64,000 bases of DNA from Nitrososphaerota archaeon (lineage in GTDB: Archaea; Thermoproteota; Nitrososphaeria; Nitrososphaerales; Gagatemarchaeaceae): assembly GCA_029785195.1 (NCBI GenBank), contig JAFMAD010000001.1, positions 124,001 to 188,000 on the forward strand, written 5' to 3'. The notes below the pieces were generated by a model. That model saw only the letters and a list, made by a program, of their open reading frames with translations. It was not told where the DNA came from and made no database searches. Positions 33,719 to 42,429 of the stretch are shown here, piece by piece. The position numbers and the translations under genes are program-made. Position 1 is the stretch's first letter; every line of letters begins with the position of its first letter.

Positions 33719-35377
33719 ATGTCTCGCGTCAGGGAGCTCTTCTGGAGGAGAGGGGAGGAGCCTGAAGGCGCGCGCCCTGCACAGGAGCAGGAGCCCCCAG
33801 AGGAGATATCAGGGGTCATTGACACATACAGGGTCCCGGCTGGGGGGAGGCCGGACTCGTCTGCCGAAGTTTTCGTGGTGGAACAGGAGGGGGCCGGGAG
33901 GTACCTCGTCCGGCTCCCAAAGCTGAGCGGAGAAGAGGCGAAGGCGCTCGACGTCCTCAGGGTGAACCTCCTGGATTCGATCCCTGCGGGCGCCTTCGGG
34001 AGCCCGAAGGAGGTGGTAGCGGACTACGTTTGGAGGACGGCCGAGGAGGGGGGTTTCGCGGCTGTGGCCCAGGAGTCCCACGACAAGCTCCTCTACTACC
34101 TGCTGCGGGACTTCACCGGGTTCTGGGAGGTCGACCCTCTCATGAACGACGACTATCTCGAGGAGATCTCCGTGAGCAGGTACGACAGGCCCGTCAGGGT
34201 GCTCCACAGGAACTTCAGCGAGCTCATGTTCATCGAAACGGACATCGTGTACCCCTCGGAAGACAGGCTGCAGGCGTTCATACGCCGCCTGGCCCAGCTC
34301 GGGGGGACGACAGTCTCCCTGGCCCAGCCCGCCCTGGAGGTGACGCTGCACGGCGCATCGGACAGGAGGGTCACGGCCACCCTTGGGGACGAGATCTCGC
34401 GGCCGGGGTCCACGTACGCCATAAGGAAGCAGAGAGAGAGGCCTATCACCCTCGCCCAGCTTGCGTCCCCAGAGAACGCGCGCTGGCCGGTCCTCGGCGC
34501 CGGGGGTGGCGCTGAGCTCCCCGCATCATACGAGGAGGTCCACGCCCACAAGACGCTCTCCGTGCTCATGGCGGCCTACTTCTGGCTCCTCCTCGAGAGG
34601 ACGACGAACGTACTGATCGCTGGGGAGACGAACTCGGGGAAGACGACCCTGATGAACGCCATCCTCGCCCTCGCCAACCCGAAGTTCAAGATAGTCACCG
34701 CGGAGGACGTCCTTGAGATCAGCCTCCCCGACCACCTCCACTGGCAGAGGCTGAAGACAAGGGCCTACAGGGCGGGGCTCTCCCCGGCCTCAGGGCGTTA
34801 CGAGTACGGCCTCCCTGACCTGCTGAAGCTCGCGCTCAGGTTCTCGCCGACCATCCTCAGCCTGGGGGAGATGCGCGGGGATGAGTCTGAGACCCTGGCT
34901 GCCGCAATCACCCTTGGATTCTCCACCATGGCCACCATCCACGCGGAGGACGCGGAGCGGTGCGTGCAGAGGCTCACAACCCCACCAATGAGATTCTCCG
35001 AAGGTCACGTGAGGGACCTCACCGCGATCGTCACCGTGCGGAAGATCGTCCTCCGGGACGGAAGGGTGGTCCGCAGGGTCGTGAGCGTCGACGAGCTCAA
35101 GCCTTCCGGCGCGTTCGAGCACGAGGTGGTGAACGTGTTCAGGTACGACCCGGCCACGGACTCCTTCGCGCCTACCACCCCGGCCGAGGTGCTCGACAGG
35201 TCGTACCGCCTCAACGAGATCGCCGAGAGCTTCGGGTGGACCCCGGCCGCCGTCCAGGCCGGCCTGGCGGTGAGGGCGGCCCGCATCTCGAAGCTGATCG
35301 CGGGCGGGGAGCTGGACCCCCGCGCTCTTTCGAAGATGGTCAAGGAGTTCTCGGTGCAGGAGACGAGGGGCGGCTGA
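33719..35377 (+). CDS. Archaeal type IV pilus assembly ATPase (GspE/VirB11 superfamily)
   Basis: Hexameric motor ATPase for pilus assembly, 552 residues. Walker A GETNSGKTTL is near residue 302, with FKIVTAEDVLE, the Walker B-like ILSLGEMRGDE and the His box ATIHAEDAER following; the N-terminal domain has the NDDYLEEISVSRYD arginine-finger region. ATG 33719 is 26 nt from a TATA box (GTTAAAAGC centred at 33693), so the operon message is likely leaderless. The membrane platform protein follows after two bases. Confidence 0.92.
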   Translation: MSRVRELFWRRGEEPEGARPAQEQEPPEEISGVIDTYRVPAGGRPDSSAEVFVVEQEGAGRYLVRLPKLSGEEAKALDVLRVNLLDSIPAGAFGSPKEVVADYVWRTAEEGGFAAVAQESHDKLLYYLLRDFTGFWEVDPLMNDDYLEEISVSRYDRPVRVLHRNFSELMFIETDIVYPSEDRLQAFIRRLAQLGGTTVSLAQPALEVTLHGASDRRVTATLGDEISRPGSTYAIRKQRERPITLAQLASPENARWPVLGAGGGAELPASYEEVHAHKTLSVLMAAYFWLLLERTTNVLIAGETNSGKTTLMNAILALANPKFKIVTAEDVLEISLPDHLHWQRLKTRAYRAGLSPASGRYEYGLPDLLKLALRFSPTILSLGEMRGDESETLAAAITLGFSTMATIHAEDAERCVQRLTTPPMRFSEGHVRDLTAIVTVRKIVLRDGRVVRRVVSVDELKPSGAFEHEVVNVFRYDPATDSFAPTTPAEVLDRSYRLNEIAESFGWTPAAVQAGLAVRAARISKLIAGGELDPRALSKMVKEFSVQETRGG

Positions 35378-35379
35378 GG

Positions 35380-37050
35380 GTGGTGAGGGGGTCCGCCGAT
35401 GGGCCAGCCGGGGGCGCCGGGAGCCCCGTCAGCAGGCTGGTGGTCTGGCGGTCTCGGAGGATCTCGACCCTCCTGAAGAGGTCAGGGCGCGTCGGGAACC
35501 CGGTCGCGATGGCGGGCGCGTCCCTGCACGCGACTGCGATGGTGGCGCTTGGGTCGGTCCCGATCGCGGTCCTGGCCGGGGCTCTCATCTCCCCCTGGCT
35601 CCTGCTGCTTTCCCTGGCCCCGCTCGTCCCGTTCCTCTCCCCGGAGGCAAGGCTCAGGGACGACGCCGCCAGGAGGCGCGAGGGGGTCGAGAGGGAGCTC
35701 CCCTTCTTCACTGTCCTAGTCGGGGTCCTTGGCGGCGCGGGGATCCCGCTCTACTCCATCATGAAAGGGGTGTCCTCAAGCGAAATCTTCCCTTCGATAG
35801 GGGAAGAGTCGCTGCTGGTGAAGAGGGACGTCGAGATATTCGGCATGAACCCCAACGACTCGCTGGAGAGGCTCGCGTCGCTGCACCCTTCGAAGAAGCT
35901 GGGCCGCTTCCTCCTTGGATACACCAGCAAGGCGAGGAGCGGCGGGGACGTCTCGGCCTACCTCACGGTCGAGAGCGGCTCGATGTTGAAGGAACTCGAG
36001 GGCGCCTGGGCGATGTACGTCGCCCGGGTCGGCATCATCGGGAGCATGATGATAACTGTGTTCGGCGTCGTCCCGCTCCTCCTGATGGTGGTAGGGGTCT
36101 TCTCCCCTGGCTTCTCCGTCGTCGGCCTGGTGTTCTTCACAGGGGTGGGGGTCCCCGTGTTCACCCTCGCACTCCTCTATATGGCAGGGAGGATGCAACC
36201 GTCCCCCGATGAGGCGCCGCACGGGAAGGCCGCGAAGAGCATGCTCGCGTCTCTCCCTTTCGCGGCCCTTGGCGTCGCCGCGGGAGCCGCCTGGGCCTCC
36301 GCCGCGGCTGTCCTTTTCGTCTTCTTCACCGCGTATGGGCTCTCCGTCAGGAAGCAGGTGTCAGAGACCAGGGAGCTGGAGGAGGGCCTCTCGAGCTTCC
36401 TGAAGGACATCCTGGAATACAAGAGGCAGGACTACGACCTTTCGAAGGCGGTGGTCGCGATGGAGGCGCACGGCGGCTACCCCCGCCCCTTCGCCGCCCT
36501 CCTCGCCAAGGTCGCCGCGAAGCTCAAGGCTGGCGTCCCTCTGGACGAGGCGAAGCCCGAGTGCAGGAGCGCCCTCGGGAGGCTCGCCTTTTTCCTCCTG
36601 GGAGAGATGAGCCGCTCGGGCGGAGGGAACGTCGACACCGTGTTCCAGGTATCCAGCTTCGCCGACAGGATGATCCAGATGCGGCGCGGCGCGACGGCGG
36701 AGATGAGGCCCTACCTCGTCCTCTCCTACGCGTCCCCTCTCCTCCTTGCGTTCGGGGTGACGTTCGTGGGCGCCATCCTCTCGTCGTTCAGCGCCAGGGT
36801 CGCCCCGGGGCTCGCCTCCGCCCGCCTCGGCGTCTTCCACGTGGGGTCTGTCCCGCCGGGCCTCTCGCAGGTCTCCGACCTGCTCATCGTGGTGTCGGCC
36901 GCCGCACTGGGGCTGATAGGCGCCAAGGTGACGGACCTCACAGTGAGGAACACATGGCGGGCGTCATTGAACGTCGCCCTCGCCGTCGCCGCGGTCCTCG
37001 TGCTCGCAGGCCCGGGCTCACATTCGCTCTCCGGGCTCCTGCTGCGCTGA
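35380..37050 (+). CDS. Pilus membrane platform protein (TadC/FlaJ/GspF family)
   Basis: A 556-residue integral membrane protein with two T2SSF domains, each with a cytoplasmic helical part (RREGVERELPFFTVLVG and LEEGLSSFLKDILEYKRQ) followed by helices. Residue pairs GDVSAYL and SGGGNVDTVF mark the two repeats. It receives force from the ATPase upstream. GTG 35380 or 35383, just after the ATPase stop, is the start; the frame open to 34960 overlaps the ATPase and is not used. Confidence 0.9.
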   Translation: MVRGSADGPAGGAGSPVSRLVVWRSRRISTLLKRSGRVGNPVAMAGASLHATAMVALGSVPIAVLAGALISPWLLLLSLAPLVPFLSPEARLRDDAARRREGVERELPFFTVLVGVLGGAGIPLYSIMKGVSSSEIFPSIGEESLLVKRDVEIFGMNPNDSLERLASLHPSKKLGRFLLGYTSKARSGGDVSAYLTVESGSMLKELEGAWAMYVARVGIIGSMMITVFGVVPLLLMVVGVFSPGFSVVGLVFFTGVGVPVFTLALLYMAGRMQPSPDEAPHGKAAKSMLASLPFAALGVAAGAAWASAAAVLFVFFTAYGLSVRKQVSETRELEEGLSSFLKDILEYKRQDYDLSKAVVAMEAHGGYPRPFAALLAKVAAKLKAGVPLDEAKPECRSALGRLAFFLLGEMSRSGGGNVDTVFQVSSFADRMIQMRRGATAEMRPYLVLSYASPLLLAFGVTFVGAILSSFSARVAPGLASARLGVFHVGSVPPGLSQVSDLLIVVSAAALGLIGAKVTDLTVRNTWRASLNVALAVAAVLVLAGPGSHSLSGLLLR

Positions 37051-37093: not shown

Positions 37094-37639
37094 TTGAAAA
37101 TCACCAGACGAAGGAAAGCGATATCGCAGAGCCTCGACCTTTTCATCATCATAGCGGCCGTCCTCGGCGTCGGCGGCGTCGTGACGGCGTCGATCTACAA
37201 CCTCATCAACAGCGCCACAGCGAACTCCAGCATAACGGTGGTGGGGGTGTCCCTCAAGGCGGGGGCAGCCCCTGCGGACTCGCCGGTCGCCATCTCGGTC
37301 GCCCTCAAGAACAACGGAGGGACCCCCATATCGTGCTCCACGGCTACTTCTTGCCAGGTGGTCTTCGCCGGGACGAGCACGGGGAGCGGCGTGACCTGCT
37401 CCACCACCTGCCCGGTGACCTCGGGGGGGAACCTGTCGTGGTCCGTCCTCACATCGACGAGCGGCCCGCTGACTTTCCAGGCAGCGCCGTCTTCCACCCT
37501 CCCCGCGGGGGGCGAGACCTCGTTCGTCCTCAACGGTCCGCTGACAGTCACAGGGACGTTCTGGGGCCCGGGGACCCCCGTGACGATCAACGTCCTCTTC
37601 GGCTCAGCTTCCGCCCAAGTCACCGTGGTCTCTCAGTAG
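37094..37639 (+). CDS. Archaeal type IV pilin-like protein 1
   Basis: A 181-residue secreted subunit. A class III signal peptide MKITRRRKAISQSLDLFIII shows basic residues before a probable cleavage after Lys-Ala, followed by the hydrophobic assembly helix to about residue 35 and a beta-rich Ser/Thr/Gly domain with two Cys pairs. The TTG start is 26 nt from TGTTAAAAGC, so there is an internal promoter for the pilin genes. Confidence 0.75.
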   Translation: MKITRRRKAISQSLDLFIIIAAVLGVGGVVTASIYNLINSATANSSITVVGVSLKAGAAPADSPVAISVALKNNGGTPISCSTATSCQVVFAGTSTGSGVTCSTTCPVTSGGNLSWSVLTSTSGPLTFQAAPSSTLPAGGETSFVLNGPLTVTGTFWGPGTPVTINVLFGSASAQVTVVSQ

Positions 37640-37696: not shown

Positions 37697-38131
37697 GTGA
37701 GCGAGCTCTACGCGTCCCTCCTCATGATAGGCGTCACGCTCTCCCTGGGGAGCCTGGTGGTCGCCGCTGCGACGAGCCAGTTCGGCCTGGCTTCCGACTC
37801 CGCTTCTGCCGAGGCCGCCCTAAGCGAGCGGACGGCCGGAGTGCAGGTGGCGCTCGTATATTCTGCCGTCATGCCTTCGACTGCCTGCCCTGACTACCAG
37901 GGGGCCCAGGAAGGGGAGAATCTGACGTTGGCGCTCTACGACTACGGGGCCGACGGGTTCACCCCGACGGGCTTCGTCGTCAACTCGACGGTCGTCACCG
38001 GGGGGTTCGGCGCCCTTGGGCCGGGCTCCCTCGCCGTGTTCGACGTCCCGCTCGGCGCCTGCGCCCACCCCTCGGGGGCGTCGGTGGCCGCCTTCGACGC
38101 CGCAGGGGACGAGGTGCAGTTTGAGACCTGA
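37697..38131 (+). CDS. Pilin-like protein 2
   Basis: A 144-residue protein beginning MSELYASLLMIGVTLSLGSLVVAAATSQF, whose N-terminal helix resembles a pilin core but without a clear basic class III leader. The rest is a beta-rich domain with two cysteines (TACPDYQ and GACAHPS). It ends inside the start of the next gene (overlap of 11 bases), which ties it to the pilin operon. The GTG start at 37697 is the only good one near the helix. Confidence 0.65.
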   Translation: MSELYASLLMIGVTLSLGSLVVAAATSQFGLASDSASAEAALSERTAGVQVALVYSAVMPSTACPDYQGAQEGENLTLALYDYGADGFTPTGFVVNSTVVTGGFGALGPGSLAVFDVPLGACAHPSGASVAAFDAAGDEVQFET

Positions 38132-38618
38132 GAGGAAGGGGGTCGCGGCGTATCTGGAGGTGTTCATCCTCATCGGGGTGGCGATGGGGGGAGCCGCCCT
38201 GGTCATGGAGGCCGCCCTCGGGTATTACGCGTCGTTGGACGGGCCCTCGGTGTCCATCGCGGGGGCGAGCATCAGGCAGGGGGCGGGCTCGGCCGTCGAG
38301 ACCCTCCTCGTCACCGACACTTCAGGGACAGGGCTGGGCGCCTTCGTGGTCTCGACGAGCGGCGCCCCGAGCTCCATGACCTACTGCTACTCGGTCTATG
38401 ACCCTGCCGACCAGGCTTTGCTCGCCTCAGCCTGCCCCGCCCCCGGCTCTGACCCTGCGTCGGTGGATGTGGGATACCCGCTGGGGGCAGGCGCCACAGC
38501 GCTCGTCGAGTTGGTCGTCGCGGGGGACGTCTTCACAATCGGCTCGAGCCACTTGGTGGCTGTGACGACGGCCGCGGGGTCGGGGGAGGGGGTCGAGGTG
38601 CGGGTCGTCCCCGCCTAG
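38121..38618 (+). CDS. Pilin-like protein 3
   Basis: Starts TTG 38121 inside the end of the previous gene. The leader RPERKG is followed by VAAYLEVFILIGVAMGGAALVM, a good class III signal and assembly helix, then a beta-rich domain with two cysteines about 20 residues apart. The product is 165 residues. Its role may be a minor or tip pilin. Confidence 0.68.
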   Translation: MRPERKGVAAYLEVFILIGVAMGGAALVMEAALGYYASLDGPSVSIAGASIRQGAGSAVETLLVTDTSGTGLGAFVVSTSGAPSSMTYCYSVYDPADQALLASACPAPGSDPASVDVGYPLGAGATALVELVVAGDVFTIGSSHLVAVTTAAGSGEGVEVRVVPA

Positions 38619-38630
38619 GAAGAGAGGGCT

Positions 38631-39956
38631 TTGGAGACCAGGAGAGGGCGCGCGGGGGTGGCTTCTGTGGTAGGGACCATCATATTCATCCTGGTCTTCA
38701 TGACGGCCCTGGGGGCGCTCGCCTACGCCTCGTCCCTCCAGACGCAGGCGTCGCAGGCGGAGCTGCAGGCCCAGGCAGTCGACGCGCAGAGGGCCGCCGA
38801 GTCGCTTACGTTCCGCACGGCCGCGGGGGGGCTCGAGGCAGTGAACGGGGGAGGGGCCACCGTGGTGGTCAACCACGTCATACTGAGGTACCCGAACGGG
38901 ACAGTCTACTCCTTCCCCGCTTCCGCGTCCATCCCTCCCGGCGGCGGCGTTCTGGTGGCACCCCTCATCCCCTCGGTCGCCTGCGCCCCTGGGACCGCCT
39001 CCTGCGCCTCGCGCTACGACCAGATCGTCTCTGGGAACCCTGAGGGGTCGTCCGTGGGCCTGCTCACGGGGCTGGGGAACGTCTTCTGGTACACCTACTC
39101 CGGGGCGCAGGCGGGATGGACCGAGGTGAGGTTCACGGCGTCAGGGACCTGGTCCGTCCCGTCCGGCGCCGGCTGGGCGTACGTGGTCTGCGTCGGCGGA
39201 GGGGGAGGGGGCGGAGGGAGCGGCGGTTCGACTGACGCCGGGGGGCCGTCCGGGAGCGGAGGGGGAGGGGGCGGCGGGGCCGGGAGCCTGGCCCAGGGGT
39301 TCGTCGACGTCCAGGGGGCGGGGTCGGTGACAGTCATCGTCGGCCAGGGAGGAGCAGGCGGGGCGGGGGGCGGCGCTACGACCGGGGGGGTCGCCGGAGG
39401 GGACGGCGGGGCGAGCTCCTTCGGTGAGTTCATCGCTTGCGGTGGAGGTCAGGGGGGCGGGGGGTCGCCGTACAACTACAACGGGGCCCCAGGAGCGTCA
39501 TGCGCGCCCAGCGGGGCGCCAGACGGGGGGAGCGGTGACGGGGTCCCGGGAGGGGCCCCCGGCGACTCGGGGGTGGCAGCGGACGCCTTGCAGTACACCG
39601 CCTACGGGGGCGGGGGAGGAGGCGGAGGGGACTTCTACACCCCGCCGGGGAGGGGGAGCCCTTCAGACTCCCTGAACCTCGGGACGACATACGTAGGGCT
39701 GCCTGGGGAGAGCGGCCTCTGCGCCTTCGGGGGCGGCGGGGGGTCTGCGTCCCCCTTCGGGGACGGCGGGACGGGGGGCGGAGGGGCTGCGACCTGCGGG
39801 ACTGGCGGACCCGGGGCGGGGGCGTCACAGAACACGGGCGCTGGCGGGGGCGGAGGGGGAGGGGCGTACTCCACCTCGACGGCGTGCGGTGGGAAGGTGG
39901 GCGAGCCCGGGGGGGAGGGCGGATCGGGGGTGGTGCTGGTGTACTACGAGGGGTGA
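38631..39956 (+). CDS. Pilin-like protein 4 with long Gly-rich adhesin-like domain
   Basis: A 441-residue protein. The N-terminus METRRGRAGVASVVGTIIFILVFM gives a basic leader and hydrophobic assembly helix; residues about 60-165 are a beta-rich domain. From about 165 the chain starts FTASGTWSVPSGAGWAYVVCVGGGGGGGG and continues to the C-terminus with repeated poly-Gly runs separated by short Ser/Ala/Tyr pieces, ending GSGVVLVYYEG. This last part matches the Gly-rich domain common in phage tail and surface adhesins. The TTG start is 12 nt after pilin 3. Confidence 0.78.
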   Translation: METRRGRAGVASVVGTIIFILVFMTALGALAYASSLQTQASQAELQAQAVDAQRAAESLTFRTAAGGLEAVNGGGATVVVNHVILRYPNGTVYSFPASASIPPGGGVLVAPLIPSVACAPGTASCASRYDQIVSGNPEGSSVGLLTGLGNVFWYTYSGAQAGWTEVRFTASGTWSVPSGAGWAYVVCVGGGGGGGGSGGSTDAGGPSGSGGGGGGGAGSLAQGFVDVQGAGSVTVIVGQGGAGGAGGGATTGGVAGGDGGASSFGEFIACGGGQGGGGSPYNYNGAPGASCAPSGAPDGGSGDGVPGGAPGDSGVAADALQYTAYGGGGGGGGDFYTPPGRGSPSDSLNLGTTYVGLPGESGLCAFGGGGGSASPFGDGGTGGGGAATCGTGGPGAGASQNTGAGGGGGGGAYSTSTACGGKVGEPGGEGGSGVVLVYYEG

Positions 39957-39959
39957 AGG

Positions 39960-41429
39960 CTACCTGGCAGCGGGGCCGACTTCGATGGACTCGGCGAAGA
40001 ACCTCCTCGTCGTCCCCGAAGCAGGCGAGTCGAAGGGGTCGACGCTCACGACCACTGGGAGGTTCCTGACGGCGTACCCCAGGAGGAGGCACATCCTGGG
40101 AGGGAGCGTCCTGACGATCGCCTTCACCGTGTCGGCGTCGGCCATCGACGCCTGGGCGACGAGCGCGAGGTCTGCGTCGTTGCTGAAGTTGTAGAGGAAT
40201 ATGTTGTCCACCTGGCGGTATATCTTCTGGTCGATGGCGTCGGGCTGGTTGGTCACGAAGACGGTGAAGACCCCGAAGTGCCGCATCCTGGTGATCAGGT
40301 CCTCCCAGTAGGTGTCCCTGAGGTAGAGGTGTGCCTCCTCTGCGAACAGGAATACGGGGGGTATCTTCCTCCTCTCCAGGAGCTCCACGAGCTTCGAGAG
40401 CATGAGCTCGACGACCATCTTCCTGTTCAGGGGGGAGACTCCGCTCAGAGACACCACGAGAGAACCGCCCGACCTGTTCAGGTTGAAGAAGTCCTGCAGG
40501 TCGAACTGTTGGTGGCTGGAGTCGGTGAAGAGGCCGCAGGAGGCAAGCGTGTGGTACCTGGCGAACAGGGCGTCCCTGACGAACTCGTTGCACCTCCACT
40601 GCTGGATCGCGGCCTCGAGGGACGCCAGGGAAAGCTCGTCCCTGTTGTCGAGCTGCTCCCAGATCTTCATGAACTCCCTCAGGGAGGTCCCGGGCATCTC
40701 GAGGGAGTGGGAGAGGAGGCTGGTGATCGGCCTCAGCCCCATGCTAGCCAGCGAGAACTTCAGCTCCCTTCCCGGCCTCATCACGCTGACCTTCCGCCCC
40801 TGCCCCGCGTCGGTGCCGTCGCTGAGCTGTCCGACCGCGGCGTACTCGTCGTTGAGGTCGAACACCACCGAGTAAGCGCCGTTCTCGAGGAGCCCCCTGA
40901 GGAGTATCTTCGCGAGGTGGGACTTCCCCGACTCCTTGCGGCCTGTGATGACCGTGATCCTCCCGTCCAGCGCCTCGGCGGGGACCCCGAAGGACGACTC
41001 GCCGTCCACTGTCCCCACCCTGATGTCCCTCACCCCCAGCGGTGGGACCGCCCCCGCGAGGTCCTCGACCAGCAGCCTGGTCACCGTGGAGCTCGTCCTG
41101 GAGGGCATCCAGTTCGCCCGCGGGGTCAGCCTCCCGTCAGAGATCGTCCCCCGCGCCTTGCAGAGCAATATCCTCATGTCGCGAATTATAGTGGAGATGG
41201 TGGCCATCTCGGTAGGGTCGGAAGTGATCCCGGGGGCTGATGCGGAGAGGACCTCTTCCCGGGCTATCTCCTCCTCGATCCCCTCCACATCGAGGTACCT
41301 CTCGTCGTAGACCTGGAGGACAAGGCTCCTCTGCGGCTCGGTGGCGACGAGGTAGTCCCCGACCCTCACCATCTCCCTCGGGGAGGCGATGACGAGTATG
41401 TCGTCCGACTCCTTCTTGAGTATCTTCAC
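39960..41429 (-). CDS. herA: HerA-family DNA translocase/helicase
   Basis: Hexameric FtsK-HerA ATPase working with NurA to resect DNA ends for recombination repair. The N-terminal HAS-barrel includes VRVGDYLVATEP, Walker A is ITGRKESGKSHL near residue 160, Walker B lies in PPVFLFAEEAHLYL, and the sensor region VFVTNQPDAID and ILLGYAV-like closing strand follow. GTG 41429 follows the nurA stop immediately. The gene lies end to end with the pilin operon, three bases away. Confidence 0.88.
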   Translation of the reverse strand: MKILKKESDDILVIASPREMVRVGDYLVATEPQRSLVLQVYDERYLDVEGIEEEIAREEVLSASAPGITSDPTEMATISTIIRDMRILLCKARGTISDGRLTPRANWMPSRTSSTVTRLLVEDLAGAVPPLGVRDIRVGTVDGESSFGVPAEALDGRITVITGRKESGKSHLAKILLRGLLENGAYSVVFDLNDEYAAVGQLSDGTDAGQGRKVSVMRPGRELKFSLASMGLRPITSLLSHSLEMPGTSLREFMKIWEQLDNRDELSLASLEAAIQQWRCNEFVRDALFARYHTLASCGLFTDSSHQQFDLQDFFNLNRSGGSLVVSLSGVSPLNRKMVVELMLSKLVELLERRKIPPVFLFAEEAHLYLRDTYWEDLITRMRHFGVFTVFVTNQPDAIDQKIYRQVDNIFLYNFSNDADLALVAQASMADADTVKAIVRTLPPRMCLLLGYAVRNLPVVVSVDPFDSPASGTTRRFFAESIEVGPAAR

Positions 41430-41430
41430 G

Positions 41431-42429
41431 CTACGCCCCTCCCTTGAAGCCCCCCAGAGCGATCTTCCGCAACGGGAAGGTGTGCAGCTGCTTCACCCGG
41501 AAGCGCTTTGCCACGTACGCCTTCAGGGCCTGGTCGTCCGCCCGAGAGAAGACAGAGAGGTGGTGAGCCACCTTGAGGGAGTCCGGGTATCCCGACGCGA
41601 AGGCGTCGTTCCAGAGTATCCGCCCGAGCGTGGCCTCGACTGGCTCCGAGCCCGCGACGTCTAGCCTGAAGACGAGGCCGTCGTTGGAGAACTTCGCCAG
41701 GACGGTGCTGCAGCTACCGCCGTCGAGGACGTGATAGGACGGGATGGGGGCGTTCGAAAGGGCGACCATGGCCTCCTCCGAGAGTATCAGGCTGCTCGAC
41801 TTCGAGAACCCCACCAAGGTCCGGCCCCCCCGTCCGCGCGCCAGGGCATGGGCGCCGAACCCCATCGGGTGCTTGAGCGAACCGTCTGCCATGACTATGG
41901 TCTCCCCCTCGCCCGCGGAGAGCGCCTCGACGACCCGCCTCTCGACGGTGTTCCTGATGAACCGCTCGGCGACGGCGTTGTCTGACAGCAGCAGTTCCAG
42001 CTCCGACGACGGGACGTGCGGGAGGAGCCCGCTCAGGCCGGAGGGGTTTGCGTAGACGAGTATCGGTCCCAGCCTGAAGAAACGGCGCAGCGCACCTTCG
42101 TAGGACACACCCACCGCGGTCCTGGCGGCATAGAGGGAGCCCTGCGAAGTCTCCCCCACCAGGACGCACGTCGAGTCGACTGACGCGATTGGCCGCCCTT
42201 CTTGGATAGGAATTATGCACCCAGGGACCAATGACGCGCCCGTCGACTCGAAGTACGGGTACTGCTCCCTCCCGTAGCTGCTGAAGACGAAGGTCCTCCC
42301 GGAGAGCTCGCGCTCCGCGTTCTCGGCGAGCTCGGCGAAGGCCTCTTCGAACTCCCTGGCCAGGGAGTCGAGGGTCGACAGCTGTCCGTCGTGCTTTGGG
42401 AAGGTTGCGATGGCCATCTTGCGCATCAT
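41431..42429 (-). CDS. nurA: NurA 5'-3' nuclease
   Basis: RNase H-fold nuclease partner of HerA. The metal-binding aspartates are in PIASVDSTCVLV and TIVMADGSLKHP, with a third acidic site in the LVFRLDVAGSEPVE region; 332 residues is normal. Start codons ATG 42429, 42426 and 42417 are possible. An AT-rich element and a 13-bp palindrome lie just upstream. Rad50/Mre11, the usual neighbours, are not in the window. Confidence 0.87.
   Translation of the reverse strand: MMRKMAIATFPKHDGQLSTLDSLAREFEEAFAELAENAERELSGRTFVFSSYGREQYPYFESTGASLVPGCIIPIQEGRPIASVDSTCVLVGETSQGSLYAARTAVGVSYEGALRRFFRLGPILVYANPSGLSGLLPHVPSSELELLLSDNAVAERFIRNTVERRVVEALSAGEGETIVMADGSLKHPMGFGAHALARGRGGRTLVGFSKSSSLILSEEAMVALSNAPIPSYHVLDGGSCSTVLAKFSNDGLVFRLDVAGSEPVEATLGRILWNDAFASGYPDSLKVAHHLSVFSRADDQALKAYVAKRFRVKQLHTFPLRKIALGGFKGGA

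Follow-up and report, generated by a model that had tools for sequence, protein, structure and literature searches.

The window, that is, the whole 64,000-nucleotide stretch of Nitrososphaerota DNA analysed here, carries a type IV pilus operon with the gene order T2SSE-T2SSF-pil1-pil2-pil3-pil4, whose four pilin-like genes end with pil4. The genes of this operon, the parts of pil4 and the neighbouring gene pair are as follows.

33719..35377, + strand: T2SSE/PilB-type assembly ATPase (PF00437), in conserved synteny
35370..37050, + strand: T2SSF/TadC-type platform protein (PF00482), start uncertain
37094..37639, + strand: pil1, small pilin-like protein, recognised by its RRRKAISQSLDLFII leader/helix in the sequence and by conserved position
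37697..38131, + strand: pil2, small pilin-like protein, recognised by sequence and conserved position
38130..38618, + strand: pil3, small pilin-like protein, start uncertain, recognised by sequence and conserved position
38631..39956, + strand: pil4, modular pilin-like gene, TTG start, stop included, 441 aa, no internal stops
38631..38657, + strand: predicted prepilin leader METRRGRAG of Pil4, cleavage expected after G9 (sequence; weak Pilin_N, PF07790, matches at the same place in relatives)
38658..38795, + strand: pilin alpha-helix, residues 10-55 (AF2 helix 11-55; invariant G/A/V positions)
38796..39095, + strand: beta-rich pilin module, residues 56-155, with conserved C118/C125 (AF2 strands 59-154; Foldseek match 8fk7), common to class I and class II proteins
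39120..39953, + strand: class I C-terminal module, TNF-like/glycine-rich (Gly_rich_2, PF21722), residues 164-441, with 39% Gly and six invariant Cys
39960-42429, - strand: HerA (DUF87) and NurA pair, convergent to the pilus operon, a neighbourhood kept in most same-genus genomes

Pil4 has the leader, helix, beta domain and T4P operon expected of an archaeal type IV pilin. Its leader and helix read RGRAG/VASVVGTIIF, a class III-type leader followed by a long helix, and a Foldseek search with the structural model of the window protein matched the archaeal T4P pilin 8fk7 of Pyrobaculum calidifontis (E 0.02, prob 1.00). Sequence searches with the pilin against the PDB gave chance hits only, and no Pfam pilin family matched the N-terminal part above its cut-off; Pilin_N (PF07790) was found below cut-off in four relatives (L024, L046, L031 and L040; E 0.006-0.2) and gave no match in the window protein. 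By architecture Pil4 is a modular pilin, in which a pilin module carries a grafted domain that is not specific to pilus biology. Its orthologues share 60-83% identity over their full length.

The pilus operon, including T2SSE, T2SSF and the three further pilin-like genes, is kept across same-genus genomes. In the window the end of herA lies 3-4 bp past pil4, and no chaperone gene was seen in the operon. In two class II species the gap between pil4 and herA holds methyltransferase-like and membrane-protein ORFs (L040:9107-9922 (-), L037:4847-5629 (-)). A prophage origin of the locus was considered and rejected. No prepilin peptidase was found in the source MAG of pil4 (1.6 Mb, 78% complete), and the family is present in 19 of the 31 genomes of the genus. 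On several contigs of this MAG, six loci with seven T2SSE-type ATPase matches between them suggest that the organism has several type IV filament systems.

The original prediction described Pil4 as a pilin joined to a phage-tail-type Gly-rich adhesin domain, and this architecture has been borne out by profile, fold and viral relatives. The FTASGTWSVPSGAGWAYVV block begins at residue 168, and Gly makes up 108 of the 278 residues (38.8%) between positions 164 and 441. The similarity to Gly_rich families expected of such a domain was recovered: the PF21722 score of the domain is 32-35 bits, above the curated cut-off of 24.3 bits, over profile positions 7-225 of 226, and the family was matched by all nine homologous Gly-rich domains (9/9). 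No Pfam family matched any of seven controls, consisting of three full shuffles, three shuffles in which Gly positions were kept and the reversed domain. PHROG matches of the domain include ‘tail fiber assembly’ phrog_863 (E 6e-14), and one Trp, several Phe, an SxFG motif, a terminal VxVYY and six Cys are invariant across nine species. The Gly-rich part of Pil4 is more than composition. PF21722 is rare within the phylum, being found above its cut-off in one of 398 sampled genomes, which is Pil4's own; two weak hits elsewhere in the phylum were Rossmann-type dehydrogenases with a GGGG loop and were taken as chance.

Viral relatives of the domain were reached through profiles. A tblastn search of the Gly-rich domain against phage records returned nothing, because the low-complexity filter probably masks the domain, and no relative was found when viral contigs were scanned with the domain of the window alone. 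Scanning the same contigs with the archaeal alignment led to one locus (L047), from which 43 loci were then reached. L047 holds two tandem tail-fibre-like paralogues, and the one that was tested lies above the PF21722 cut-off. Profiles built from archaeal domains only and from viral domains only align at 98.1% probability (E 9e-14), which falls to 0.4-0.5% when either side is reversed.

The viral homologue was modelled with confidence (pLDDT 81, pTM 0.81) and has the fold of a TNF-like plus glycine-rich (TG) domain. Among solved structures it is matched best by the tail fibre of cyanophage Pam3 (7ypx, TM 0.70, E 5e-8), followed by the tail tip of phage Bxb1 and then by the TG domains of ALK/LTK; among predicted viral structures Gp38 of Synechococcus phage syn9 ranks first. 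The model of the window protein has a mean pLDDT of 46, with most of residues 278-423 below 50 and the Gly-rich loops unresolved, and at this low confidence its strand order is the same as that of the TG fold. Its Foldseek matches to Bxb1 (E 1e-5) and Pam3 (E 4e-4) are not independent evidence, since 9 of the 13 rows of its alignment were viral. Taken over profiles and folds, the comparison indicates homology between the C-terminal domain of Pil4 and the domains with which phage tail fibres of the Pam3 gp24 type bind receptors. The label “phage-tail-type” was therefore correct, the best solved matches being the Pam3 tail fibre and the Bxb1 tail tip, and the type can be narrowed to the TG domains of Pam3 gp24 and Bxb1 as closest solved relatives; S16-type gp38 is absent among the 50 structural matches listed. 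In Pam3 gp24 a TNF-like sandwich continues into six Gly-rich loops with 39% Gly, the stem is conserved, and the distal tip, which varies, is the presumed site of receptor binding; TG fibres of this kind in phages are trimers that form with the aid of a chaperone (PMC9608196). By homology, a polyglycine-II lattice is likely in the Pil4 domain.

In same-genus genomes, either of two modules forms the C-terminal end of the operon's last pilin. Class I is the Gly-rich module, found in nine full-length copies and two fragments. Class II is a module of about 165 residues from ten genomes, with the motif QSTSST-FV-V-GLSF-G ... FCGG and several conserved Cys (L037:5686-6180, L038:8147-8644, L041:6079-6588 and others), and it matched no family above chance in Pfam or PHROG. 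Class II proteins are 29-41% identical to the window protein overall and 42-61% over the pilin part, and the pilin parts of the two classes are homologous. The classes are mutually exclusive per genome with one apparent exception, G018, in which fragments of both occur (L029 and L030); this case was set aside as a probably mixed MAG, because each fragment, beside its own HerA, sits with a different lineage. The exchange of a whole C-terminal module at the same locus in sister species goes beyond the original prediction.

A tree of T2SSE, T2SSF, HerA and NurA does not place class I in one clade and needs two to three changes between the modules; a single class I clade is rejected on this flanking-gene tree (p-AU 4e-40). 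Class II is probably the older module, since it reaches deep branches, and class I was probably gained once in a crown clade, inside which class II is present twice. L040 is one of the class II loci. Every other gene at L040 is closest to the class I species L036 (67-91% identity), whereas its pilin part is closer to the class II species L039 than to L036 (61% versus 50%), and the pilin-part tree groups it with class II species at a support of 90/94, which is not strong. This disagreement between the pilin part and its own flanks suggests whole-gene replacement by recombination. Because related species hold different domains at the same spot, the presumed sticky end of the pilus appears to have been swapped between lineages.

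Within class I the picture is one of constraint. The dN/dS ratio is 0.17-0.26 in the Gly-rich domain and 0.13-0.28 in the pilin module's beta part, which shows purifying selection, and no positive selection was found in Pil4. Entropy is 0.90 outside and 0.41 inside the Gly runs, in the range of the pilin part. The expectation that the loops vary fast among strains did not hold: between species the Gly-rich domain varies only moderately, with few indels, and hypervariable loops were rejected on the dN/dS of about 0.2 and on an entropy within the pilin-part range. A shufflon was likewise rejected. No C-terminal cassettes or tyrosine recombinase were seen at the pil4 locus, herA abuts pil4, and the ORFs in the gaps of L040 and L037 are unrelated.

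Several known systems resemble Pil4 in part. Modular pilins are an established bacterial class, and the survey that describes them covered bacteria (PMC8179133). PilB and PilC of Streptococcus sanguinis are, like Pil4, minor pilins with a non-pilin domain grafted C-terminally and a presumed tip position (PMC8179133), whereas Pil4 belongs to an archaeal operon, carries a TG domain in place of a vWA or lectin domain and has alternatives at one locus across sister species. The domains of Pam3 gp24 and of the mycobacteriophage Bxb1 tail tip share with Pil4 the TNF-like plus glycine-rich fold and the order of strands and Gly loops, and Pam3 is also about 39% Gly; they differ in sitting on a phage tail, with Pam3 trimeric and dependent on a chaperone, while the Pil4 domain sits on a pilin and has six conserved Cys and longer Gly-rich inserts. 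In the polyglycine-II sandwich of gp38 from Salmonella phage S16 and PP01, Gly-rich motifs hold binding loops as they may in Pil4 (PMC12892980), but gp38 was not among the 50 matches listed and the Pil4 loops are not hypervariable. PilV of IncI plasmids also joins a constant N-terminal pilin part to alternative C-terminal specificity modules (PMC9045228). In PilV, however, a recombinase switches the modules within one cell at DNA inversion sites, whereas each genome here has one pil4 module, changed between species, and the locus showed neither cassettes nor a recombinase. The TG supradomain of ALK/LTK is of the same fold class, but it belongs to animal receptor kinases and the similarity is remote and structural only.

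We consider the domain assignment and the phylogeny solid, and from them we infer function. Our preferred explanation, which we think probable, is that Pil4 is a modular minor pilin, probably located at the pilus tip, that displays an adhesin of the phage-fibre type and is exchanged between species. A prepilin peptidase would cleave the leader at RGRAG/VAS, and the N-terminal pilin module and helix would admit Pil4 to the filament. The TG strands would build a sandwich of the TNF-like type, and Gly-rich stretches in pairs would extend from it as a stiff stem whose distal loops are the likely binding surface. The bulk of Pil4 and the place of its gene at the end of the operon make a capping position on the filament most likely, and the protein may sit there as a trimer; the same argument from bulk to tip position has been made for PilB (PMC8179133), and the minor pilin CofB offers a precedent for a trimer at the tip (PMC10191384). 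A filament capped in this way could bind a cell or mineral surface as its putative ligand. Since either the TG domain or an unrelated module is found on a homologous pilin part, tip specificity would change by replacement of the module or of the whole gene. More tentatively, and with somewhat less than even confidence, we suggest that a receptor-binding domain of a tailed virus was captured into an archaeal pilus and that it is now one of at least two tip alleles that can replace each other and have moved between species by recombination. If so, the pili and the viruses of these archaea would share one stock of binding modules.

Three other readings of the data need to be weighed. The Gly-rich part might be suspected of being a linker of low complexity or a composition artefact, given its 38.8% Gly and the pLDDT below 50 over most of residues 278-423, but its position-specific matches vanish on shuffling or reversal, and the Trp, Cys, Phe and strand motifs are invariant over nine species under purifying selection. 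The shuffled and reversed controls rule out an artefact of composition, and because profile, fold and viral relatives all support a domain, the part is not merely a disordered linker; we regard this reading as very improbable. A non-tip or structural subunit, whose module stiffens, glycosylates or shields the pilus shaft or anchors it in the S-layer with no specific receptor binding, would fit the purifying selection throughout (dN/dS of about 0.2) and the eight invariant Cys, and system-specific minor pilins can sit along the shaft (PMC10191384). Such a role is nevertheless unlikely, given that a module of 278 residues is large for packing into a helix, that the relatives with solved structures are receptor-binding tips and that a swap for an unrelated module at the same place fits a change of specificity better.

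The pilus might instead serve species-specific exchange of DNA or exchange between cells, as do the Ups pili of Sulfolobus, with the swapped module setting the mating partner and not a surface to be bound. The HerA-NurA end-resection genes that adjoin the operon convergently in most same-genus genomes would suit this purpose, as would the whole-gene exchange in L040 and the example of the PilV tips of IncI plasmids, which choose conjugation recipients (PMC9045228). HerA-NurA lie on the opposite strand, however, and may be a mere neighbour, and we hold a mating pilus to be rather improbable. An adhesive tip that is exchanged between species is thus the reading we retain for Pil4.

To our knowledge, little is known about archaeal pilus-tip adhesins. 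In a census of archaeal T4P, adhesins are treated as proteins in their own right, and the word “fusion” is absent from the text (PMC4858521). The open-access literature yielded no modular pilin from archaea that carries a phage-fibre domain; modular pilins are known in bacteria, and an archaeal pilin with such a domain looks new. With Pil4 the concept of modular pilins reaches from bacteria into archaea, with a specific adhesin fold whose structure is understood, and the same binding domains would seem to serve archaeal pili and phage tail fibres alike. Close relatives that differ in class at this one locus provide a natural experiment on the specificity of archaeal pilus tips.

Other grafted parts also occur. 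A Flg_new_2 domain, instead or in addition, is found at the pil4 position of a distant same-genus locus and of one same-family locus. Same-family pilin-like proteins with large grafted parts carry Flg_new_2 (L024, L046) or repeats of about 900 residues (L025), and L028 holds a 2011-codon repeat ORF with a pilin-like N-terminus.
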